DNA from: Bifidobacterium subtile
GTDB lineage: Bacteria; Actinomycetota; Actinomycetes; Actinomycetales; Bifidobacteriaceae
Direction: 5' to 3'
Assembly: GCF_000741775.1 (NCBI RefSeq)
Contig: NZ_JGZR01000005.1
Coordinates: 1 to 64,000 of the forward strand
DNA: 64,000 nt
Positions 335 to 17,317 of the stretch are shown here, piece by piece. Made by a program: the position numbers and the translations under genes. Within the stretch, counting starts at the first letter, position 1. Every line of letters starts with the position of its first letter. Under the pieces are notes generated by a model. It was not told the origin of the DNA, searched no databases, and worked only from the letters and a program-made list of their open reading frames with translations.

Positions 335-1082
335 ATTTCAATCCACGCTCCCGTGAGGGAGCGACCTGCGGATGCGGACATCATTCCTTATCAGTATCAA
401 TTTCAATCCACGCTCCCGTGAGGGAGCGACCCAGGCCGGAGAGCCAATAGACGCAATCGGATCATTTCAATCCACGCTCCCGTGAGGGAGCGACTCCATC
501 GACGTCTCATTCGAGCATGACGACGCGGATTTCAATCCACGCTCCCGTGAGGGAGCGACCTGGGACAGGCGTACATCCTTCCGTATGGCAACAAATTTCA
601 ATCCACGCTCCCGTGAGGGAGCGACTGGAGCACGAGCGAACCCGCGTATCAGCGGAACCAATTTCAATCCACGCTCCCGTGAGGGAGCGACACGTCAGCC
701 TGTTCGGCTGGCGAAGAGCATAAGGATTTCAATCCACGCTCCCGTGAGGGAGCGACATGCACTTCTAAATGTCTTCTCGCGCTCAATGATATTTCAATCC
801 ACGCTCCCGTGAGGGAGCGACGTGTCCATCGCTTCAGCCGATTCGGGATTATCGATTTCAATCCACGCTCCCGTGAGGGAGCGACAACCTGATCTCCGTC
901 AACCAAGGAGACAGACGATATTTCAATCCACGCTCCCGTGAGGGAGCGACACGACTACCAGTTCGAGCGCGTATGGCGCGAGCCGATTTCAATCCACGCT
1001 CCCGTGAGGGAGCGACGCGTGATGTACGTGTTGCCCGCTGCTTGCATAGGGATTTCAATCCACGCTCCCGTGAGGGAGCGAC
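335..1082 (-). CRISPR. Type I-C CRISPR array, 12 repeats and 11 spacers
   Basis: Twelve 31-bp direct repeats, identical as far as I can read, start at 335, 400, 464, 529, 595, 661, 726, 791, 855, 920, 986 and 1052. Spacers are 33-35 bp. Read on the minus strand the repeat starts GTCGCTCCC, forms a hairpin (GCTCCC with GGGAGC), and ends GTGGATTGAAAT, the type I-C pattern whose last 11 nt become the crRNA 5' handle. The orientation agrees with the cas operon, and the leader-proximal end is at 1082 next to cas2. The most distal repeat is not degenerate, which may mean the old end was removed, perhaps by the neighbouring IS21 element. No spacer match inside this window was noticed by eye. Confidence 0.98.
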
Positions 1083-1343: not shown

Positions 1344-1634
1344 CTACACCATCATGACACTATCATCGGGCAGATGCCGTTGCACTCCCATGTGTTCAAT
1401 CCGATTCGAGTAGTTCGCTCCAAGATTGTAGAACCGCAGACTATCCGACTCCAAATCGGCGAGTTTGTGCAAATCATGTTTAAGTGTCAGAAAATCCGAG
1501 GGCGTCACAGAACATTCGAAAACACTGTTCTGCACACGCTGCCCATACTTCTTGCATGTTTTAGCGACCTGACGAAGTCGTCTCCTGCCTTGTGGAGTCT
1601 CGGTGTTGACATCGTATGCCACTACGACAAGCAT
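1344..1634 (-). CDS. cas2: CRISPR adaptation endoribonuclease Cas2 (type I-C)
   Basis: 96 residues, normal length for Cas2. It opens with MLVVVAYDVNTET, the ferredoxin-like first strand carrying the conserved aspartate (D8), followed by GRRRLRQVAKTCKKYGQRVQNSVFEC, typical of I-C Cas2. Cas2 dimers bridge two Cas1 dimers in the complex that inserts new spacers at the leader end. It is the last cas gene on the minus strand, 6 bp after cas1 and immediately before the leader. Confidence 0.97.
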   Translation of the reverse strand: MLVVVAYDVNTETPQGRRRLRQVAKTCKKYGQRVQNSVFECSVTPSDFLTLKHDLHKLADLESDSLRFYNLGANYSNRIEHMGVQRHLPDDSVMMV

Positions 1635-1640
1635 GACTCA

Positions 1641-2672
1641 TCACTTCCACATAAAAGGCGGGTAGGCATCCAGATCGCCACGTATCGTCCGCGTCAGTAG
1701 CAGCGCCTGAACATAAGGAACCAGGCCCCATGATATCTTCTCATTCAAGAACGGATGCGTAATCGTCTGGGCTTTGTGACGCTGCCACGCTGCGAGAACG
1801 GTTTTCCGCCCTTGCTCGTTAAGAAAAATCCCGCCATTCTCACGCTCCTCAAAATTCGTGGATTTCACTGCGCCGGTATTCACGAGACTCAGTGCAAATC
1901 TATCAGCTATGGCAGGCCGGAACTCCTCCATGAGATCAAGTGCGAGCGACGCCCTTCCCGGCCGATCGACATGCATAAAGCCCACGTAGGGATCCAACCC
2001 AACGCCTTGGAGCGCGGCAGTGCAATCACCGGCAAGCAGCGCGTACACGAAGGACAACAAAGCGTTCATTCTATCTAACGGCGGCCTGCGGCTGCGTGTT
2101 TCAAAGAAGAACGAATCTTTATCACGCAGAATCAAGTCATCGAAGGCAAAGAAATAATCCTTGGCTGCGTTCCCCTCCACGCCCCTGAGTTCGTCTATAG
2201 ATATGCAAGTACCAAGTGTCTGCATCGCATCATGCAACGCAGCGCTCTTTTCTGAAATTCGTTCGACGTTGACGCGCATTACGTGATCTCGCTTCGTGCG
2301 CTCCAGTACCCATCTGCAGTTAAACAGCTTTCCCGCGATGAATGATTGTGCGATGGGCAGACTGTTTGGTTCAGCATCCGCGATTCTGAATTGTTCCCTG
2401 CGCAGTAGAACATTACGATTCTTCTCTCCCAGAACCGAACAATAATACCGTCCGTGTGGAGAAAAGAAGGAGAGCCCAACGTCAAATTCCGAACATTTTC
2501 CCATCAGTGCCGGCGAGGCACCTTTGTAGCTAAAACTCATGATCTGCTCTATGGAACGCAACGGTACCGAAGCCAATTTCTTGTCACCTTGATGAACAAC
2601 GACATTGTCGTTTTCGAGAGACAGATACGAGTCTTCCGTCATCACGAATAGCGTATTCAGCAACTTCCTCAT
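1641..2672 (-). CDS. cas1: CRISPR adaptation integrase Cas1 (type I-C)
   Basis: 343 residues, full length. The N-terminus (MRKLLNTLFVMTEDSYLSLENDNVVV) is the usual I-C Cas1 beta domain; the C-terminal alpha domain holds the metal-binding region around GVEGNAAKDYFFAFD (Glu), FVYALLAGDCTAALQGVGLDPYVGFMH (His) and DLMEEFRP (Asp/Glu). Cas1 is the metal-dependent integrase that catalyses spacer insertion. Its ATG overlaps the cas4 stop (ATGA at 2672-2669), implying translational coupling with Cas4, which in I-C selects PAM-containing prespacers. Confidence 0.97.
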   Translation of the reverse strand: MRKLLNTLFVMTEDSYLSLENDNVVVHQGDKKLASVPLRSIEQIMSFSYKGASPALMGKCSEFDVGLSFFSPHGRYYCSVLGEKNRNVLLRREQFRIADAEPNSLPIAQSFIAGKLFNCRWVLERTKRDHVMRVNVERISEKSAALHDAMQTLGTCISIDELRGVEGNAAKDYFFAFDDLILRDKDSFFFETRSRRPPLDRMNALLSFVYALLAGDCTAALQGVGLDPYVGFMHVDRPGRASLALDLMEEFRPAIADRFALSLVNTGAVKSTNFEERENGGIFLNEQGRKTVLAAWQRHKAQTITHPFLNEKISWGLVPYVQALLLTRTIRGDLDAYPPFMWK

Positions 2673-3379
2673 CGCGCATCCACCGTCTGAGACTCTACCG
2701 TCTGCGATTCGTCGTCATTCATATACTGTGCGATATAGGCTTTCGCTGATTTCGCCCTACCCAACTCAGGCAGACACAAATCCTTGAGAGAACATGCGTT
2801 GCACGCCCGCTTGCGCTTAGCCTTCGGCGTGTATCCTCTGGCATACATTTCATGCATCTGCTTCAAAAGCTCCCTCACCTCAGAACGCAAGGAATCATCA
2901 AGGGCTACGACCTCTCTGCGCCTGGTCTGATGATAGAACAACGCTCCCTCTGGAATGTCACAAGCAAGCATCTCCTCAAGACACATCGCCTCGGCGCACA
3001 GCTGCAGACGATCAGCGTCCACAGTCTTCGCAACACCATGCTTGTATTCCACCGGATAAGGATTCCAGGTGCCTTCTCGATGTTGGAGCTTCACGCCTTC
3101 AGCAGACTTCTTGAATTCGACGACATCGCAGATACCGGTTATCCCCAGATGTCTGGAAAATACACGAAGACTACGGAGAATCAGCAAATCACCACGAGTC
3201 TCGGATTCATCATAATCATCTGCCCGCTGATGCTCCAACGATCCGGCAGTGGTTCTGACATTTTCCGACCAAAGCTGCTCGATATGAATCAAAGCCCACT
3301 GCCGTTTGCAAAAGGAATAGTGCTGCAAGCCTGAAAGGGCCAACCAATCATCCTCAGGATATTCGTCTGGCCCCTCCAT
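2669..3379 (-). CDS. cas4: CRISPR-associated exonuclease Cas4
   Basis: 236 residues. RecB-type nuclease: N-terminal motif HYSFCKRQWALIHIEQ carries the first iron-sulfur cysteine, the middle has PVEYKHG (the E-x-K of the nuclease core), and the C-terminus has CNACSLKDLCL with the remaining three cysteines of the 4Fe-4S cluster. In type I-C, Cas4 associates with Cas1-Cas2 and trims prespacers so that they carry the correct PAM. A 120-bp non-coding gap separates it from cas7; the rest of the operon is nearly gapless. Confidence 0.96.
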   Translation of the reverse strand: MEGPDEYPEDDWLALSGLQHYSFCKRQWALIHIEQLWSENVRTTAGSLEHQRADDYDESETRGDLLILRSLRVFSRHLGITGICDVVEFKKSAEGVKLQHREGTWNPYPVEYKHGVAKTVDADRLQLCAEAMCLEEMLACDIPEGALFYHQTRRREVVALDDSLRSEVRELLKQMHEMYARGYTPKAKRKRACNACSLKDLCLPELGRAKSAKAYIAQYMNDDESQTVESQTVDAR

Positions 3380-3499: not shown

Positions 3500-4342
3500 T
3501 CAGCGACCATCGAGTATTTCATGCTGCAGCCCTGGGATGCTCTCAGTATTAACCGAGACATTCCCCTCGGGATCCACAGATACTGCGCGATGAACCTTGG
3601 CAGAAGAATACTGGCCATATTTGCTGTTATGCGTGAACCAAACAACTTTCAGCACTTCCATGGAACCTGCAGGGCGCGCGGAACTTTCGTCATTCTCAAA
3701 AAGCGTGAGCAACGCGTTCTTGATCTTTTCGGCATCCTCATCGCTAAAACCGGTCCTCTCGGCAAGCTGTGTGCTGATGCTTCCATAAGTCCGGTACACG
3801 GCACGCCCAGAGACACGATACTTCATTCCCATGGTGTCGGAAGACTTCTTATCGGTGTCCGTGGTCTCACTGTTCACTGATTTCGTGATCTGCACGTCAT
3901 CAATGGCGATAGGCTGCACTGAAAAAGCCGACTGGATGGACACTGGGCCCCTCACTCCCAACGAAACAGCATCAGTATCGTCTCCCTTTTTGAAAGCAAA
4001 AACCTGACCAAACGACCTCACATCCATCCATCGCGCGCAAACATTGTCAAAAACGACTTTCTTCTGTTTGCGATCAGCAGCGCTCAAGGTCTTCAGAAAT
4101 GCATTCATCCGATCGGTCAGCGATCGCGCCCCGTCATCAGATCGTTCATCCATCTGGACGAAAATACTCTCTCCCTCATCCTGAAGTCTGTTGCGTATTT
4201 TGCGTTTGATTGCTACATCGGAAATCTCACCCAGGCCTTCGGATGTCGTTCGTGGACGATTGCCATTCAACGGATCGCCGTTGGGATTCGCATTGTCAGC
4301 CATAATGACTACAGCGAAATCAATCTTGTTCGACAGACTCAT
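3500..4342 (-). CDS. cas7c: Type I-C Cascade backbone subunit Cas7 (Csd2)
   Basis: 280 residues. The N-terminus MSLSNKIDFAVVIMADNANPNGDPLNGNRPRT is the diagnostic Csd2 start with the NPNGDPLNGNRPR loop. It forms the helical filament that coats the spacer part of the crRNA and causes every sixth nucleotide of the guide to flip out. It lies 5 bp after cas8 and is probably translated from the same mRNA as cas3-cas5-cas8. No broken motifs seen. Confidence 0.97.
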   Translation of the reverse strand: MSLSNKIDFAVVIMADNANPNGDPLNGNRPRTTSEGLGEISDVAIKRKIRNRLQDEGESIFVQMDERSDDGARSLTDRMNAFLKTLSAADRKQKKVVFDNVCARWMDVRSFGQVFAFKKGDDTDAVSLGVRGPVSIQSAFSVQPIAIDDVQITKSVNSETTDTDKKSSDTMGMKYRVSGRAVYRTYGSISTQLAERTGFSDEDAEKIKNALLTLFENDESSARPAGSMEVLKVVWFTHNSKYGQYSSAKVHRAVSVDPEGNVSVNTESIPGLQHEILDGR

Positions 4343-4347
4343 GGTGT

Positions 4348-4764
4348 TTATTCTCCTTTAATTTCTTCGATTGCTTCTGTAGATTTCTTCGCCGCGATAC
4401 GCTGTTTAAGAACTCTGCGCTGAGATGAGTATCCCAAAAGGAATAACGGCGATAGTGCATCGCTGATGTCGTAATCCCCATCTCGGAAAAGCGCCATGAC
4501 ATCATCTACATCATCTTGAAAACGATTCGCCCTTTTCAACGTTTTTATGTTAGCTGATTTCATATACGGCACAAGCTGCTTCCACAGGTTGCCCCATGTG
4601 GAATAAGGTTTGGCCACGAAGTTACTCATGAGTTTCACTGCATTGGTCGGCCGCGTGTCAAGAATGCCTTGCTGATACAGCACCCCGGATTCAAAGTCAT
4701 CGGCAAGCGCCAGCAGACGTCCATAGAGATAATCTCTATCGGTCCGTGTCACATCCAGTTCCAT
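4348..4764 (-). CDS. cas11c: Predicted Cas11c small subunit from an internal start inside cas8
   Basis: An in-frame ATG at 4764-4762 inside cas8 is preceded by an AAAGGA Shine-Dalgarno-like stretch about 11 nt upstream. It would give a 138-residue protein (start MELDVTRTDRDYLYGR) identical to the Cas8 C-terminus. Type I-C systems are known to make their Cascade small subunit Cas11 this way; it lies along the R-loop and stabilises target binding. The purine-rich site and size are seen here, but separate translation is inferred. Confidence 0.6.
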   Translation of the reverse strand: MELDVTRTDRDYLYGRLLALADDFESGVLYQQGILDTRPTNAVKLMSNFVAKPYSTWGNLWKQLVPYMKSANIKTLKRANRFQDDVDDVMALFRDGDYDISDALSPLFLLGYSSQRRVLKQRIAAKKSTEAIEEIKGE

Positions 4765-6312
4765 AGTTACGATTGTCCTTTCTTGTACGAAGTGTTTTTT
4801 CCAAAGGCTGCATGCAATCTCGAAGTTCCGAGACCATGCTGATGTGCTGCTATATCCCATCGGCCTTGTGACCCGATGAAAAGCCGACCGCAACAAAGAA
4901 CTAGGAAGGTCATGACTGCCGAACATGCATTCGATCAGTTCCTTCTTGACGTTTTTCGAGAAGCGCTTATAACTGGCACTCGAACGCTCGTCAACCGCAT
5001 AAGCGCATTTCACGATATTGTCAAACGAAGGGGCGCCTATATATTCAACTGGCTTAGACTTCTTTTTCTCATCATAGGTAAATCGTATGAGTGGCCAAGC
5101 AGAGTCAATATGCCAACGCAGGATACTTTCCAAGTATTTGCCGCTGTCCAGTTCACGATAGAACGTGACGCTGAGTCTGCCTGAGGTCGCAGCATCAAAA
5201 ATCGCAAGCACGACTTTTCTGCCGTGCTTCGTTAATATCTGCGCATCACCGTAGCCACGCAGAATTCCCGCAAATTTCTCCGCATAGTCAGTATCAATCT
5301 GATGCCGTGCCTCAGTCTGCTGCTCGGACTCAGTACGTTCCTCTGACCCGTGGAATTGTGCAAACAGCTCGCTAGAATCCCCCTCGGGCTTTACCACATC
5401 AGCGGGGTCGCCTCCCACTGCCCAAATCACGATATCCTGGGTATCGGTAGCATCGCCATTATTACTGACGATCCATGACAACGTCGAATGAACCTTCTGA
5501 GAAGTGAGCTTGTCGATTCTTAAAGCTTCACTTTTATCGGAGAACCTGCCACGGAAAGTGAAATTAGTGTTGTCATTAGCTGAAATAAGTTTGGCATTGC
5601 CATCGACACTTACTATCTTTTTGGGGAAGCTGTCGGCAGGCTCATAAAGCGTCTCACCAAAATCGTCAACTCCGATCTTCTCGCCTGTGTTGCTCTGATG
5701 AGCAATCCATAGATCGCGTATCGCCCTGTCTTCCCAAATATGAGGAGTATGGTCACCCGGAACTTCCACTGAGAATCGGACCCCGAGCTTACGGTCCTTG
5801 TTAAACCGACTTTTGGCATCTTGTTCGTTCGATTTCGGTTCGGAAGAATCATCTGAAACGCCATCAGGATTATAAAGGTCAAGATCAAAATGTTGTGCAT
5901 CTGCCGAAATGCTATGCTCGGAAAGATAACGGTAAATTGCATTGAGTTTTGCATTCTCACCCTTCCAGCTGTCCAGCTGCCGCATGTACAAAGCAAATTT
6001 GTCCGCGTCATACGCTTTATCGACATATTGCAACTGATCACATAACGGATGAGGCACCGGTTTCGTGCCGGAGCGACCCATGGATTTCTCAGTGCATGGC
6101 ACAACAATGGTGACATCCTTCGAGTCCTTTTCAATTCTCCTTAGAACACCATTCTGATCAAGGGTGACGCAGAGCTGCGTCTTCAACGTAGTGTGATGTA
6201 GCGGCAGGAGGACCTTGCTCACATCGGGATTTCCGTCGCGATCAGGCAGAATCATCCCAGCGACGTTCTGCACTTCATCATATGTCTCAAGTAGACTCGA
6301 CCATAAGCTCAT
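4348..6312 (-). CDS. cas8c: Type I-C Cascade large subunit Cas8 (Csd1)
   Basis: 654 residues, slightly longer than many Csd1 proteins. It starts MSLWSSLLETYDEVQNVAG and contains the family-typical VGGDPADV-like segment and the C-terminal helical part (YLYGRLLALADDFE... FLLGYSSQRR). Cas8 recognises the PAM on target DNA (TTC is the usual I-C PAM) and opens the duplex so the crRNA can invade. The C-terminal quarter is also predicted to be translated separately as Cas11 (see 4348-4764). Spacing is 5 bp to cas7 and 4 bp to cas5. Confidence 0.95.
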   Translation of the reverse strand: MSLWSSLLETYDEVQNVAGMILPDRDGNPDVSKVLLPLHHTTLKTQLCVTLDQNGVLRRIEKDSKDVTIVVPCTEKSMGRSGTKPVPHPLCDQLQYVDKAYDADKFALYMRQLDSWKGENAKLNAIYRYLSEHSISADAQHFDLDLYNPDGVSDDSSEPKSNEQDAKSRFNKDRKLGVRFSVEVPGDHTPHIWEDRAIRDLWIAHQSNTGEKIGVDDFGETLYEPADSFPKKIVSVDGNAKLISANDNTNFTFRGRFSDKSEALRIDKLTSQKVHSTLSWIVSNNGDATDTQDIVIWAVGGDPADVVKPEGDSSELFAQFHGSEERTESEQQTEARHQIDTDYAEKFAGILRGYGDAQILTKHGRKVVLAIFDAATSGRLSVTFYRELDSGKYLESILRWHIDSAWPLIRFTYDEKKKSKPVEYIGAPSFDNIVKCAYAVDERSSASYKRFSKNVKKELIECMFGSHDLPSSLLRSAFHRVTRPMGYSSTSAWSRNFEIACSLWKKHFVQERTIVTMELDVTRTDRDYLYGRLLALADDFESGVLYQQGILDTRPTNAVKLMSNFVAKPYSTWGNLWKQLVPYMKSANIKTLKRANRFQDDVDDVMALFRDGDYDISDALSPLFLLGYSSQRRVLKQRIAAKKSTEAIEEIKGE

Positions 6313-6316
6313 ATCA

Positions 6317-7027
6317 TCACTCCTGTGCCAAACTGAAGTTATCCCCGATTACAAAGTCCTTCACCGCCTGTTGGTTGCGAATAACGTCACAGTCCAATGA
6401 CTGCGCATCCGGTCTGACGAAAGCGATAACTCCATTATTCATCACTGGACGCCAGAATTTTGCAATGAAATTATGCTCGGGATTCTCATCGGGATATGAA
6501 AATCCGTAGAACATGTATCCAAGACTCATCTCGCCGTACTTATCGTAGAACCCTTCACCCGAGTCAAATGAACACGGCTCGACATATCCTTGGCATTCAC
6601 GGGCACCGAGGAAAATATCCCTTCTACCTCCCTGGGCGAGCGAACGTTTCGCTATATTATGGTGTTTGTTTTCATTGCGGTCCTGTACAAGGTCCTGGCG
6701 CTGTTCATTCCATTCGAAATGCGCTCGTACCCGGTAACGCACGTCTTTGAGATACGTATAGTAGGAGAGGTCGTTACCGCCATTCATCTTAATCGGACGA
6801 ATGCCTTTCCCTTCGGTCTGTATCTTGTTCATCACTCGTACGCCATCAATTACCCAAATGAATGTCGGCTTCCAGTAAATGCTCTCCGTGATGCCTTTCA
6901 GCGCCTGATATGTGGGGACTTGATAAGAGAATTTCTCTCCCCCAGTCCTCGTTGCCACTTCCGAAAAAAGGGCATACGGAGCATATAGCTCGTACTCGAT
7001 CGAGTTTCGTTCCTTCAGCACATGCAT
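6317..7027 (-). CDS. cas5c: CRISPR pre-crRNA endonuclease Cas5 (Cas5c/d)
   Basis: 236 residues. Residues [36 protein letters not shown] give the Cas5d N-terminus, with the tyrosine/histidine/lysine-rich central part ([23 protein letters not shown]) in which the catalytic triad of Cas5d normally lies. Type I-C has no Cas6, so Cas5 cuts the repeat RNA below the hairpin and keeps the 11-nt 5' handle. This is relevant to the degenerate repeat at 9551-9584, which keeps that handle. Confidence 0.96.
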
Positions 7028-7037
7028 CCCCTTCTAC

Positions 7038-9425
7038 TCACGCGAACAGAGGAGACATCTCTGTCTCCAACACGACGCCGTATTCACTCTTATAATATTG
7101 CTTATCCAACAACGAAATGCCGAACTCCGAATCGATGACACTTATCGCATGCGCTTCCGACAGTTTCTCGATTTCATAGTCGAACAGAGAAACTGAGTAA
7201 TCCTGGAGAAGGCGCAAAGAACGAATTTTCGTCTTCGTGTCCCCTTTTTCAAATGCATCAAGGATGTCTGAGAACTCAGTATCGTTTTTATCTTTCGCAT
7301 ATGGGACAAGGACATCCTTAGTAAGGTTAGGAATGACATGGAATTGATCACTTGCCGTCCTAAACGCCTGAGCCAATTGATGGCCGTATCGCTTGGAGGT
7401 CCGATCCATATAACGATTCCGATCATATTCATTGGAAGAGAGCATGGTGTAAATGTTGTGCGAAGAGTCAATCGGGTAATCCATCTCAGCTTGGCGCGGA
7501 GCAAAATAGAATTCGTAGAACTCGTTAAGCATGTCATCTGACAGCAGGTCTACTCCAGGATGATCTTGGACAAGCCGATTGGTGATTTCTTTTCCGAGCT
7601 TGATATCTTTGAGTTTCTCTAGTCCGCGCTCATTCTTGATTGAAACGACATAGACGTTCTTAGCTTCTTTCGATTCGCCGTTCCGGTTGCATCGACCGGC
7701 AGACTGCAGAACGCTGTCGAGACCTGCCATGGCACGAACCACGCAGGCGAAGGAGATGTCCACTCCCGCTTCGATCAGCTGAGTACTCACGCAGATTATC
7801 GGCTGATGACTCTCGAGCAGTTTGATCATCTTCTTGAGCTCATTAGCCCTGTGCTTGCCACACATCGAGGTACTGAGGTGCACCAGTGCGAATTCACCGT
7901 CGGCATTGAGTTCTTCCAGATGCTGATACAGCTTCCTCGCCTCTGACTTCAGATTGACGATGGCGAGGCAGTTTCCGTTTTCCTTGGCCCTTTCCATGAC
8001 GAAATCAGCCAATTCGTCAAGGTCCTTTTCTTGCGGAATCGGGACAATATTGGTCCTTTTCAGAGCGGCAGCGTATTTGTCAGAGTCTTCGATGAGGTCC
8101 GGGTTTTCGGAAAGCAGCAGATTATGCCGATCGGTCTTATCAAGCAATGGCTGGGTCGCCGAGCATAGCAGTATCGTGCAGTTCAAGATTTTGGACAGGA
8201 AGCTGACAACCTCGTTGAACAAATTGATTGCATTGACCGGGATGGATTGGATCTCGTCGAACACGATGACGCTATTCGCCATATTGTGGAACTTGCGCAG
8301 TTTCGTGCCGTGTGAAGACATCACCGTTTCCAAGAACTGCACCATCGTCGTCACGATAATGGGATTGTCCCAACGTTCAGCGGCTAGTTTCCGGCGGTTG
8401 ATCGTCGAACCGTCTTCTTTGCCATCGTCATCGTCATCGGAGTTCATCACGCTCGAATAATGTTCCAAGAGGATGTCGCTTTCCTTCGGAAGATCAAGGA
8501 TATCCCGGAAAGACTTTGTAGTTTGCGTGGTTATCGTCAGATATGGACTGACATAGATAATATGGCTCTTCTGTGTTTGCAATGCGTGGTGCAGAGCGAA
8601 ACGCAGAGAAGCCAACGTTTTCCCGCCACCAGTCGGCACGGCAAGTTTGTATATGCCAGCCGGCCTGTCAGCAGCATTAAAACACGCCTCGGAGATTTCG
8701 GAACGTATCTTATTGATTGGCGACGTGCTGTCAAAGGCACCGATGTTCTTCTCGAAACGATCGACAAGTTGCTGCCAATCCGGTTTGTGCGAGGCGAGCT
8801 GCTGATGGGAGCTGAAATTCCCGGCATCCAACCGGTCTGCATCAACCAGTCGTGAGAAAATATATTTCACATATTGTCCCAGCGAGAAATATAGCGATTC
8901 CTGTTTATAGAAGCCCGCATGCATGAGTCGTTCAAGCAGAATCTGAGTCTCTTTGACGCTTCGTTCAAACCGTGCGTCAGTGTCCAATTCAAGTTCAGGA
9001 ATGTTCTCCTTGACTTCCTGATAATGGTATTTCTCCTCGCCCTTATTCGCCTCGGACATCTTGTCGAAGAACGACTCATCGCCACTTGGCGCAATACAGT
9101 CCGGAAGATCGCCATGATGGCTGGCAATGTCCAGCTCAAGAATTTCCTGTGTGAGCTTTTCGGCTGCGCTGGCTGCAGGAATCTCCGAAATCGTGAAGGC
9201 TCCCTGATACGCATGAATCACTGACCCACGTTTGGCGTCATCAGCAAACAGATATTGCTGAAAATCCTCCTTTGCCTTCCCCTCGTCGTGATGAATCGCA
9301 GCGGTCTGAGCCGTTTCTCCAAACTCATCCTCGAATTCTCCTGCGAGTCTCGCCGTGTTGTGCAGATGGTCGAATAGGGTCTGCACCGACCCTTCATCAT
9401 CTTTGCGCGCATACAATTCTGGCAT
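7038..9425 (-). CDS. cas3: CRISPR effector helicase-nuclease Cas3
   Basis: 795 residues, first gene of the operon. An N-terminal HD nuclease (residues about 10-220; IHHDEGKAKEDFQ carries the HD pair) precedes a superfamily-2 helicase: Walker A PTGGGKTLAS near residue 265, motif II FDEIQSIP near 385, and motif VI QSAGRCNRNGE near 595. Cas3 is recruited to a fully formed Cascade R-loop and shreds the displaced strand. The ATG at 9425 has AAGGAAA 6 bp upstream. Its promoter (TATAAT at 9465-9460) is the predicted target of the small RNA at 9551-9658. Confidence 0.97.
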   Translation of the reverse strand: MPELYARKDDEGSVQTLFDHLHNTARLAGEFEDEFGETAQTAAIHHDEGKAKEDFQQYLFADDAKRGSVIHAYQGAFTISEIPAASAAEKLTQEILELDIASHHGDLPDCIAPSGDESFFDKMSEANKGEEKYHYQEVKENIPELELDTDARFERSVKETQILLERLMHAGFYKQESLYFSLGQYVKYIFSRLVDADRLDAGNFSSHQQLASHKPDWQQLVDRFEKNIGAFDSTSPINKIRSEISEACFNAADRPAGIYKLAVPTGGGKTLASLRFALHHALQTQKSHIIYVSPYLTITTQTTKSFRDILDLPKESDILLEHYSSVMNSDDDDDGKEDGSTINRRKLAAERWDNPIIVTTMVQFLETVMSSHGTKLRKFHNMANSVIVFDEIQSIPVNAINLFNEVVSFLSKILNCTILLCSATQPLLDKTDRHNLLLSENPDLIEDSDKYAAALKRTNIVPIPQEKDLDELADFVMERAKENGNCLAIVNLKSEARKLYQHLEELNADGEFALVHLSTSMCGKHRANELKKMIKLLESHQPIICVSTQLIEAGVDISFACVVRAMAGLDSVLQSAGRCNRNGESKEAKNVYVVSIKNERGLEKLKDIKLGKEITNRLVQDHPGVDLLSDDMLNEFYEFYFAPRQAEMDYPIDSSHNIYTMLSSNEYDRNRYMDRTSKRYGHQLAQAFRTASDQFHVIPNLTKDVLVPYAKDKNDTEFSDILDAFEKGDTKTKIRSLRLLQDYSVSLFDYEIEKLSEAHAISVIDSEFGISLLDKQYYKSEYGVVLETEMSPLFA

Positions 9426-9452
9426 AGGTTTCCTTTTTCATACTGACTGATA

Positions 9453-9489
9453 TAAATATATTATATACCGTACAACGAACTAATTATAA
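9453..9489 (-). promoter_or_regulatory. cas operon promoter upstream of cas3
   Basis: On the minus strand a consensus -10 box TATAAT lies at 9465-9460, with transcription expected to start near 9453 and a 28-nt leader to the cas3 ATG. The -35 region (9489-9484, TTATAA) is weak. The segment is very AT-rich compared with the coding DNA around it. Confidence 0.7.
9463..9479 (-). promoter_or_regulatory. Predicted Cascade target (TTC PAM plus 14-nt seed match) over the cas3 -10 box
   Basis: Minus-strand TTC at 9479-9477 is followed by GTTGTACGGTATAT at 9476-9463. The guide-like part of the RNA at 9585-9598 reads GTTGTCCGGTATAT. Thirteen of 14 positions agree; the one mismatch is position 6. A full-length footprint would run to about 9443 and cover the -10 box and start site. 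The match stops after position 14, as expected for binding without Cas3 cleavage. Confidence 0.8.
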
Positions 9490-9515
9490 CGTGTGTGTCG
9501 CTCATTTCACTCCAA

Positions 9516-9544
9516 TGGACAACTCACATCAAGACGGTTATCGT
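9516..9544 (+). promoter_or_regulatory. Promoter of the crRNA-like RNA
   Basis: TGGACA at 9516-9521 (5 of 6 to TTGACA), 17-bp spacer, TATCGT at 9539-9544 (4 of 6 to TATAAT). The predicted start, about 7 bp downstream, is near 9551, the first base of the degenerate repeat. Divergent from the cas3 promoter. Confidence 0.55.
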
Positions 9545-9550
9545 ATCTGT

Positions 9551-9658
9551 GTCGCCTCCTTTTTAGAGAGACGTGGATTGAAAAGTTGTCCGGTATATGA
9601 AGAATGACTCATAGGGTTTTTCACTATTATGTGCTGAAAAACCCTCCAGTCATTTTTT
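9551..9658 (+). ncRNA. crRNA-like regulatory RNA with a degenerate I-C repeat (CreR-like)
   Basis: The stretch 9551-9584 resembles the array repeat but is encoded on the opposite strand to the array: the first five bases GTCGC and the segment CGTGGATTGAAA are kept, the stem is degenerate (only GTC/GAC and CTC/GAG can pair), and the last base is A instead of T. So the 11-nt handle TGGATTGAAAA is preserved. It is followed by a spacer-like sequence (9585 on) whose first 14 nt match the cas3 promoter behind a TTC PAM. There is no second repeat; a strong terminator (9604-9658) ends the RNA. Known crRNA-like RNAs (CreR/CreA types) use short guides with Cascade to silence promoters, so autoregulation of the cas operon is inferred. 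Confidence 0.8.
9604..9658 (+). terminator. Rho-independent terminator of the crRNA-like RNA
   Basis: ATGACT (9604-9609) pairs with AGTCAT (9648-9653), and AGGGTTTTTCA (9613-9623) pairs perfectly with TGAAAAACCCT (9635-9645). The hairpin is followed by six T at 9653-9658 on the plus strand only. The polarity shows that it ends a plus-strand transcript, although it also lies just after the stop of the convergent fic gene. Confidence 0.85.
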
Positions 9659-9660
9659 AG

Positions 9661-10905
9661 TCACCTCCGCCGTAAACCCGCTGCATACCCATCGAGCACG
9701 TCGAGAATCCCGCGATGTTCCCAGAGCACATTACGCTGCTTGCCTGAGCGGGGCGTTAAAATCCCCAATTCCCCAAGCTGCTTGATTGCCCGTTCCGCTT
9801 GAGGCTTGCTCATGCCAGCATTTTCGCGCAGATACCGCGTATTCATCACAGGCTGCGCGACTAAATGCGGCAGCACTTTCCACACCGGCGAATCACTACG
9901 CACCCCATTCAGCTTCTTGCGAGCCAAATTCAACTGCTCAACGAGCGCATCGATAAGCCGTCGCCCACTACCGGCGGCAAACAGGCACGCCTGAGCGAAC
10001 TGATCAACAATCGGTGCCGCATCGCCCTCTCGATATGCCGTCAACGCCTCAAAATACCGTTCGGTCTGCCGCAGCAAGCCTGCGGAAATGGGCGGCGTGA
10101 TCTGTTGCGCCATTCCTTTATTCCGCAAAATCGCATACACCAGCGCGCGCCCGCAACGTCCGTTTCCATCTGCGAACGGGTGAATGGTCTCAAACTGGGC
10201 ATGAGCGATGGCGCATTGCGCGATCACTGGCATATCATCACGCATGATGAAAGCAAGCAGATCCCGCATCGCACGTTCAACCAGCTCTGCCTGCGGCGCA
10301 ATATGAGAAGCGCCAAGTGGGCTGTAGCTGTTCGTCCCAACCCATACCAGTTGCCTACGATAGTGCCCGGCCTCAGCTTCCCATCCATGCTGCGCAAGCA
10401 GCAACGCTCGATGCATCGCAAGAATATTGGCCTCGTTCATATCCTTGCCGAGGCTCAACGCCGCTTCCATCGCCCGCACATTGCCCACGACTACCTTGGC
10501 GTTCTCGCTGCTCCCCTCAAGGAGCGTTTCCAACGCAAGATTTTTCGCGCCAACCGTCAATTGCTCAATCTGAGAAGACGAAGCGGCTTCTGTGCGCAAC
10601 AGCACCGCACTCATCGGCCCAAGCACGCGGCTGCCAGCACCCAGTCGTGCCGAAGCATACGAATCAAACGCCGCAAGCGCATAAGCGGCCTCCTCCACGT
10701 CGGCACCCAGCGATTGCGGCAACACAAATTCAACATCTGCCAGCGTTGCAGGAATAGTCGATTCGTACTGTCCGTTGCCTTGAGACCGTTTGGTACGCGA
10801 CACCGGCAGTTCACTCGCGATATGCCATGTATGAAGCTCATGACCGACCGACGGCACGGCCAGACGCTGGGTCTTCTCACTGATACCCGACGTAACCGCT
10901 GACAT
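9661..10905 (-). CDS. Fic-domain protein (AMP-transferase family) with C-terminal winged helix
   Basis: 414 residues. An N-terminal Fic_N region (about 30-130) contains an inhibitory-helix-like stretch ASSSQIEQL, followed by the Fic core with HPFADGNGRCGR near residue 230 (catalytic His, Asp/Glu and the anion-binding GNGR) and a C-terminal winged helix-turn-helix (about 340-400). Fic proteins usually transfer AMP from ATP to a hydroxyl on a target protein. The motif that normally reads S/T-x-x-x-E-G/N ends in E-Q here. The ATG at 10905 has GGAGGTGG 5 bp upstream. The HTH and the large palindrome just upstream suggest self-regulation. Target unknown. Confidence 0.9.
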   Translation of the reverse strand: MSAVTSGISEKTQRLAVPSVGHELHTWHIASELPVSRTKRSQGNGQYESTIPATLADVEFVLPQSLGADVEEAAYALAAFDSYASARLGAGSRVLGPMSAVLLRTEAASSSQIEQLTVGAKNLALETLLEGSSENAKVVVGNVRAMEAALSLGKDMNEANILAMHRALLLAQHGWEAEAGHYRRQLVWVGTNSYSPLGASHIAPQAELVERAMRDLLAFIMRDDMPVIAQCAIAHAQFETIHPFADGNGRCGRALVYAILRNKGMAQQITPPISAGLLRQTERYFEALTAYREGDAAPIVDQFAQACLFAAGSGRRLIDALVEQLNLARKKLNGVRSDSPVWKVLPHLVAQPVMNTRYLRENAGMSKPQAERAIKQLGELGILTPRSGKQRNVLWEHRGILDVLDGYAAGLRRR

Positions 10906-16302: not shown

Positions 16303-16634
16303 CCGCACCAGCACTGACATGACGTGTGCGGCCCCAAGGCGCAGAAAGCGAAGGCGTACAAGGGTACGTCGAGCTTTCTGCAACGCAGGGGACGCCCTCT
16401 GACACCGGTGCTGGAAACCAGCACTGATGCGATGCGTGCGTCTTCAAGGCGCGGAAGGCGAAGGCGTACAAGGGTACGTCGAGCTTTCTGCAACGCAGGG
16501 GACGCCCTCTGACACCGGTGCTGGAAACCAGCACTGATGCGATGCGTGCGTCTTCAAGGCGCGGAAGGCGAAGGCGTACAAGGGTACGTCGAGTCTTCCG
16601 TAACGCAGAAGACGCTCCATCGCATCAGTGCTGG
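16303..16634. repeat. Three 110-bp tandem repeats with dyad ends
   Basis: Units begin ACCAGCACTGA at 16307, 16417 and 16527, an exact 110-bp period. Each unit ends in GTGCTGG, the complement of its start, so each could fold as a long hairpin with an inner GTAC-AAGG-GTAC loop. In unit 3 the arms are near perfect (CCAGCACTGATGCGATG against CATCGCATCAGTGCTGG); units 1 and 2 have diverged on the right arm. They lie between the MFS pseudogene and the convergent araD-like gene and overlap its last codons. Confidence 0.9.
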
Positions 16635-17317
16635 CCGTAGACGTGTTGGTAGCGGTCGTTGAGCCTGTCTACATCCGACTGCTCGATGGGGATGATGTCG
16701 CCGATCTGCCGGGCCGCCCACATAGTGTGCGCCACTTCTTCGGTCATAGCGGCTGCCTTGACGGCGTCTTCGGCATCCTTGCCGATGACGAATGGACCGT
16801 GGTTGCGCATGAGGACGGCGGAGGAATGCGGGTACTGCCTGAGGGTATCCACTACGCCTTTGCCGATGGCTTCCGAACCGATGAGTCGGAAGGGTCCGAC
16901 CGGCACGGGGCCGCCGAATTCGTCGCCCATCATCGTCAGGCCGCATGGGATGTTCTGCCCGGTGGCCGCCCATGCGGTCGCATAGGTCGAATGGGTGTGC
17001 ACTACGCCGTATACGCCGGGCATGTGACGGTAGATGTAGGCGTGCGATGCGGTGTCGGATGACGGTGCCTCGGCTCCGTCGACCACGTTGCCGTCCAAGT
17101 CGCACACCACCATCGAGTCCGGCGTCAGATACTCGTAGCGCAGGCCGGATGGCTTGATCACCAGCAGATCAGCGGTGCGCAGGCACTGCGAGACATTGCC
17201 TGCAGTCCACACGACCAGATTCCACGTGATGAGCTGCTTGTGCAGATCGGCGACGACCTGCCGCACCTGCTTCACTTCGGCTACTGTTTCCGGTCCAAAA
17301 TCAGCCAATGTTGCCAT
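16625..17317 (-). CDS. araD: L-ribulose-5-phosphate 4-epimerase (class II aldolase family)
   Basis: 230 residues, usual size for AraD/UlaF/SgbE. GNVSQ near residue 41, KPSGLRYEYLTPDSMVVCDLDG, SSDTASHAYIYRHMP and VVHTHSTYATAWAATG carry the phosphate site, the acid residue and zinc-binding His-x-His; NHGPFVIG supplies a further histidine. It interconverts L-ribulose-5-phosphate and D-xylulose-5-phosphate, feeding the phosphoketolase pathway. The normal R of GNVS.R is C (QCLRTAD). The ATG at 17317 has GAGGT upstream. Which substrate pathway (arabinose, ascorbate-type or other) is not settled; the neighbours suggest a sugar-acid or lactone route. Confidence 0.9.
   Translation of the reverse strand: MATLADFGPETVAEVKQVRQVVADLHKQLITWNLVVWTAGNVSQCLRTADLLVIKPSGLRYEYLTPDSMVVCDLDGNVVDGAEAPSSDTASHAYIYRHMPGVYGVVHTHSTYATAWAATGQNIPCGLTMMGDEFGGPVPVGPFRLIGSEAIGKGVVDTLRQYPHSSAVLMRNHGPFVIGKDAEDAVKAAAMTEEVAHTMWAARQIGDIIPIEQSDVDRLNDRYQHVYGQH

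Follow-up and report, generated by a model that had tools for sequence, protein, structure and literature searches.

CreR, a cas-regulating RNA, was reportedly described by Liu et al. in Cell Host Microbe in 2023, and Shmakov et al. are said to have found, in NAR in 2023, stand-alone repeats in type I loci whose spacers show partial complementarity to cas promoters. A CreR gene is typically a mini-CRISPR that has two repeats. In type II-A, the tracr-L RNA of Workman (2021) is said to be a natural guide RNA that makes the effector repress its own operon. CreR autorepression is described for I-B, I-E and V-A systems in the accessible parts of two reviews (PMC12737573, PMC13131331), and in the available portion of a report on type I-B the related RNA CreA represses its target by way of an 11-bp seed and causes no interference (PMC10989794). 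CreA occurs with either one or two repeats, and for this reason we do not take the two-repeat form as defining CreR.

Type I-C is the CRISPR subtype of most bifidobacterial strains, according to the accessible text of a 2026 review of bifidobacterial CRISPR (PMC12838274), in whose accessible main text a search by term gave no mention of CreR. Our literature search likewise found no report of a CreR in type I-C, the full texts of Liu 2023 and Shmakov 2023, which may list I-C, lying outside that search. Here we describe an RNA gene in a type I-C locus that is very probably a CreR-type autorepressor, one that would guide Cascade to the cas promoter.

The type I-C locus and its divergent RNA gene

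The window (the whole stretch of 64,000 nucleotides analysed here) carries a CRISPR system with all the features that mark membership of type I-C: the genes cas3-cas5c-cas8c-cas7c-cas4-cas1c-cas2 together with an array. The genes all lie on the minus strand and score over the curated cut-offs of the NCBIfam profiles by which they were called: cas3, the first gene of the operon (7038..9425; TIGR01587 and TIGR01596), cas5c (6317..7027; TIGR01876), cas8c (4348..6312; TIGR01863, whose cut-off of 218.65 bits it passes with 219.3), cas7c (3500..4342; TIGR02589), cas4 (2669..3379; TIGR00372), cas1c (1641..2672; TIGR03640) and cas2 (1344..1634; TIGR01573). The CRISPR array (335..1082) has 12 identical 31-nt repeat cores, and the crRNA sense is again the minus strand. 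The likely promoter of the operon, GTGAAA-16-TATAAT (9483..9510, minus strand), carries 10 of the 12 consensus bases and is the best-scoring cas promoter in a promoter scan. Elsewhere in the window, a 110-nt unit is present in three tandem copies at 16307-16636 (91% and 77% identity to the first).

The gap upstream of cas3 (9426-9660) contains, in plus-strand order, a promoter-like site, a degenerate repeat, a guide and a long hairpin that includes a run of TTTTTT. The RNA gene is divergent from cas3 and places the RNA element between the cas genes and a neighbouring Fic-domain gene (9661-10905, minus strand), whose 3' end meets that of the RNA gene and whose NCBIfam matches are far below cut-off. 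The likely RNA promoter, TGGACA-17-TATCGT (9516..9544, plus strand), is one of 7 promoter-like sites that the scan finds in the gap, compared with a mean of 1.0 in shuffled sequence, and the same motif can be read in L001, a close relative whose cas3, the nearest found, is 91% identical to that of the window. Just upstream on the minus strand, the 7-mer GTTGTCC was set aside as a candidate site, as it falls on the -35 region of the RNA itself and no TTC precedes it.

The degenerate type I-C repeat, or psi-repeat (9551..9584, plus strand), retains the exact handle GTGGATTGAAA and ends in A where the array repeat ends in T. Its stem is weak, at -4.7 kcal/mol no better than shuffles, compared with -13.4 for the array repeat. 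The portion of the guide that matches the cas3 promoter (9585..9598, plus strand) is followed directly by the long hairpin and TTTTTT run (9599..9658, plus strand; fold z -3.8), which we read as the RNA terminator; a simple terminator scan of the window, with loops restricted to 3-8, reported none. The predicted RNA as a whole has a fold z of -3.6. No second handle-like stretch is present 3' of the guide in the window, and the two-psi-repeat mini-CRISPR form is thus not found here. A search of Rfam at 9300-9800 returned nothing relevant, the lone match being to a microRNA on the hairpin and far below its gathering score.

Guide and target at the cas3 promoter

The guide GTTGTCCGGTATAT (plus strand, 9585-9598) aligned with the minus-strand sequence GTTGTACGGTATAT (9476 down to 9463) matches at 13 of 14 positions with position 6 as the sole mismatch, exactly as the original prediction had it. 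The match is perfect (10 of 10) across the seed positions 1-5 and 7-11; of the next four positions past 14, a match is seen at 16 but not at 15, 17 or 18. The target (9463..9479, minus strand) comprises this protospacer (9476-9463) and a TTC triplet (9479-9477), and its prior identification as the I-C PAM agrees with the PAM reported for bifidobacterial I-C in the accessible part of PMC7284854. The site had also been said to overlap the TATAAT of the promoter. This is not so for the best-scoring cas promoter, which stops 3 nt before the TTC, and the target would thus cover the expected transcription start region; the overlap does exist with a second TATAAT (9465-9460, minus strand), at the 3' end of the target, which the scan did not report as a promoter.

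A match of this quality is not expected by chance. Dinucleotide shuffling of 9426-9660, repeated 20,000 times, gave no TTC-preceded site above 12 of 14, a score that appeared once. From base composition, 1.5e-6 sites with at least 13 matches are expected in the gap, and the chance of about one in a million first estimated for the match therefore stands with composition included.

In the whole genome (2.79 Mb) the pattern TTCGTTGTNCGGTATA occurs exactly at one place, which is the cas3 promoter site, and the next best two places have 2 mismatches. Places with at most 3 mismatches number 45 for the pattern and 53 for its reverse. There is thus no excess of near-matches, and this genome-wide pattern search does not indicate a wider regulon beyond cas.

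Guide-target pairs across type I-C loci

We assembled 57 type I-C loci: that of the window, L001, 17 further loci of the genus from a Cas3 search of 112 genomes, all 12 that a Cas5c search of 189 genomes recovered from the rest of the family, all 14 others that Cas5c recovered from 394 genomes sampled across the class, and 12 plasmid loci. The latter were taken from 19 Cas5c records, the omitted ones (H5, H6, H7, H9, H12, H15 and H16) being mostly of species already represented; L003 lies on the same contig as L001, which alone was counted. Every stretch within 2 mismatches of the repeat handle, around cas3 and before cas5, was treated as a candidate (n=227), and its guide was compared with all sites within 600 nt on both strands, with no PAM required.

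TTC heads 1.9% of the sites compared. Nevertheless, full matches at positions 1-5 and 7-11 lie behind TTC for 23 of the 227 candidates, with single cases behind AAA, AAT and TTT, and matches at 9 or more of these 10 positions lie behind TTC in 31 cases and behind any other triplet in at most 2. Shuffled guides give a mean of 0.013 (maximum 1) at 10/10 and of 0.42 (maximum 3) at 9/10 or better. Two of the 31 were dropped, L069 (inside a cas3-sized frame) and L084 (doubtful, with a mismatch at seed position 3), leaving 29 pairs; removal of L038, L039 and L043, whose guides differ at no more than 2 of 17 positions from one that was kept, leaves 26 that are non-redundant.

A pair is present in 29 of the 57 loci. 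The genus contributes 16 of its 19 loci, the remainder of the family 6 of 12, the sample of the class 5 of 14 and plasmids of other phyla 2 of 12 (Lacticaseibacillus paracasei pLPZ1 and Paenibacillus amylolyticus pY5S7-1), which amounts to 7 of 26 loci outside the family. The other 28 have no countable pair, and three of these (L034, L044 and L048) belong to the same genus as the window. L048 (6371-6740) has a near-canonical repeat, a guide like that of L042 and a second repeat-like stretch, with no target at 9/10 behind TTC and no Cas5c match in its genome, G005, and it is probably a decayed locus. Two further loci were also not counted: in L054 (2636-2779) the seed match lies behind TTT rather than TTC, and in L056 (2687-2836) guide and site are one base apart in length near position 6. 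The pair of pLPZ1 (L078, 8635-8799) is unbroken from position 1 to 13, with 6 and 12 included, and lies between cas2 and cas5c in an I-C locus that has another gene order and contains insertion sequences. In L039 (genome G061) cas3 has an in-frame TGA, and the pair before cas5 still matches at 9/10. Four of the 31 hits (L061, L063, L067 and L074) combine a 10/10 seed with little pairing past position 12.

With cas genes in the relatives identified by profile hit, size and position, and on plasmids by annotation, the 29 targets precede cas3 in 13 loci and cas5 in 16, and none lies elsewhere. RNA and target lie directly before cas5 in these 16, 14 of which follow a cas3-sized frame. The RNA is oriented opposite to the cas genes in 21 loci and is co-directional in 8. 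In L061 (2985-3167), L063 (3026-3121), L070 (2633-2864) and L074 (2486-2805) the co-directional RNA lies between the upstream target and the next cas gene, where it could belong to the leader of the mRNA that it would repress. The gene cas3 seems to be split in four species of one genus (L055, 2942-3211; L057, 3020-3289; L058, 3059-3310; L059, 2941-3210): the long cas3 frame is overlapped by a short one of 84-90 aa that resembles the cas3 N-terminus. The short frame is preceded by a TTGACA-16/17-TATAAA-like promoter (TTGACT in L055), with the target next to it.

The repeat stem beside the handle survives changes of sequence (31 rows, L069 and L084 included; Fisher P 2e-13, a value that ignores relatedness), but not in the window itself (p 0.46). 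A strong hairpin (z below -2) follows the guide in 26 of the 29 pairs, the exceptions being L001, L074 and L081, and a second handle-like stretch is absent from 26 and doubtful in L040, L045 and L046.

Guide and promoter change together, as the original prediction had proposed to check. We compared 30 rows, the 29 pairs and the TTT-preceded L054, over 13 positions. Guides match their own sites at a mean of 12.1 positions (minimum 9) and swapped sites at a mean of 4.1; just 12 of the 870 swapped pairs reach 11, all within near-identical groups (window/L001, L036/L038/L039, L042/L043 and L054/L055). Of 19 comparisons between similar guides, some of which may pair guides alike by chance rather than descent, 18 have 1 to 5 positions altered on both sides with the match retained, and 9 also have one or two one-sided changes. 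Thus L040 and L041 differ on both sides at positions 2, 4 and 5 with no one-sided change, L047 and L060 differ on both sides at 2, 3 and 15, and L055 and L057 at 4, 5, 7, 9 and 10. These sequence comparisons show that relatives preserve the guide-promoter match through sequence turnover.

In type I crRNAs every sixth base is unpaired. Across the 26 non-redundant pairs, mismatches at positions 1 to 20 number 0, 0, 0, 0, 0, 23, 1, 1, 0, 2, 0, 20, 4, 7, 9, 16, 19, 23, 17 and 20. The pairs were selected on positions 1-5 and 7-11, and position 6 and positions 12-20 played no part in selection. The claim that position 6 is exempt from pairing is thus borne out in 23 of 26 pairs, and it extends to position 12 (20 of 26). 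These two rates are in line with free drift (0.75; P = 0.08 and 0.52), which indicates that mismatch there is tolerated rather than demonstrably selected; selection for the position-6 mismatch itself was tested and is unsupported. Positions 13, 14 and 15 match in 22, 19 and 17 of the 26 (P 3e-10, 4e-7 and 2e-5), and from position 16 on matching is near random.

These data bear on four other explanations of the RNA. It could be a former regulator that is decaying in this genome, with a residual match that no longer regulates. The weak stem of the window's psi-repeat is in keeping with this, and L048, with its guide but neither target nor Cas5c, resembles such a case. However, the window keeps the full seed, the exact handle and the PAM, and compared with L001 it has a two-sided change at position 11 alongside one-sided changes at 8 and 15. 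We regard decay as very unlikely.

We consider it highly improbable that the RNA belongs to an addiction module of the CrePA/CreTA type, in which it would mainly repress a toxin gene, perhaps fic (9661-10905), with the cas match secondary. All 29 targets precede cas3 or cas5, and the sole exact guide site in the genome is the cas3 promoter, not the toxin promoter that CreTA and CrePA target. Cre RNAs accompanied by toxins are known from the accessible parts of reviews, and a Fic-domain gene is indeed the next gene, but it points towards the RNA, and its promoter would thus lie more than 1.3 kb away.

An RNA anti-CRISPR (Racr) or leftover of a mobile element, whose solitary repeat decoys Cas proteins and which has no regulatory guide, is an extremely unlikely identity for the element. 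A decoy needs no guide that tracks a promoter, whereas we observe a match, a PAM and two-sided changes, and the element lies within the cas locus, between the cas genes and their neighbour. The window element does have a single repeat, and a prophage of Bifidobacterium pseudocatenulatum carries an I-C Racr, as stated in the accessible part of PMC10651486. Finally, chance similarity or a functionless inverted duplication is of negligible probability, for although the gap is AT-rich and a duplication could create a match, neither fits the 1.5e-6 sites expected in the gap, the 23 full-seed pairs against 0.013 with shuffled guides, the clustering of mismatches at 6, 12 and past 15, or the two-sided changes.

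Proposed autorepression by Cascade and comparison with known systems

Autorepression of the CreR type is thus our preferred reading, and the steps it would involve, from transcription to repression, are modelled on the anatomy of the RNA, on CreA in type I-B and on CreR as reviewed. The original prediction had already put forward Cascade autorepression and did not name the known CreR class. The RNA would be transcribed from the gap and cut by Cas5c at the repeat. Cascade would then load it and bind the cas promoter through about 14-15 nt, with positions 6 and 12 unread, and the bound complex would block cas transcription. Cas3 cutting would be withheld because the pairing is too short; the short guide running into the hairpin would explain the early end of the match. 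The promoter would be freed, and more Cascade made, whenever too little Cascade is present, ordinary crRNAs occupy it or an anti-CRISPR blocks it.

Taking all the loci together, we consider it reasonably likely that I-C systems, above all those of Bifidobacteriaceae, carry a minimal autorepressor RNA in which a single psi-repeat is followed by a short guide and then a hairpin. In such RNAs selection would hold pairing to positions 1-5, 7-11 and 13-15, ending near 15, which would be enough to place Cascade on the promoter and too short to license Cas3. The position of RNA and target directly before cas5 in 16 of 29 loci suggests that the loop senses Cascade rather than Cas3.

This provides I-C with a concrete model of self-regulation, one testable in harmless gut bacteria. 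The 26 natural pairs amount to an evolutionary experiment that reports which positions of the match must stay and how much pairing is kept, and the resulting position rule could be used to find further such RNAs and to design Cascade-based gene repression. From a practical standpoint, cloned or overexpressed I-C operons may bring their own brake.

Compared with tracr-L, which is said to be a long form of tracrRNA acting with Cas9, both the RNA and the effector in the window are unrelated. The element resembles RacrIC1, as described in the accessible part of PMC10651486, in that each is a lone I-C repeat unit and the genus is the same, but RacrIC1 is a prophage-borne inhibitor beside an acr gene and needs no guide to a cas promoter.

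CreR is a closer counterpart. In the window, the cas locus includes a crRNA-like gene whose repeat is degenerate, its guide is partly complementary to the cas promoter behind the PAM of the system, and the two covary; a crRNA-like RNA in the cas locus with partial cas-promoter complementarity is likewise what the accessible parts of the reviews describe (PMC13131331, PMC12737573). Effector autorepression, with relief by crRNA competition or anti-CRISPRs, is reported there for CreR of other subtypes and is predicted for the window; by analogy only, the same relief may apply here. The differences are that the systems named in those texts are I-B, I-E and V-A whereas that of the window is I-C, and that the window RNA has a single repeat, with a short guide leading into a hairpin. 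With CreA of CreTA the window RNA shares a degenerate repeat, a promoter-matching guide and a short seed, and in the proposed model it would also share Cascade as the repressor and the absence of interference (accessible parts of PMC9458426 and PMC10989794), but CreA targets a toxin RNA gene and the window guide the cas operon. As stated in the same accessible parts, CreA has one or two repeats and the window RNA has one, and the single-repeat form is thus not unique to the RNA described here, one-repeat forms of CreA being already on record.
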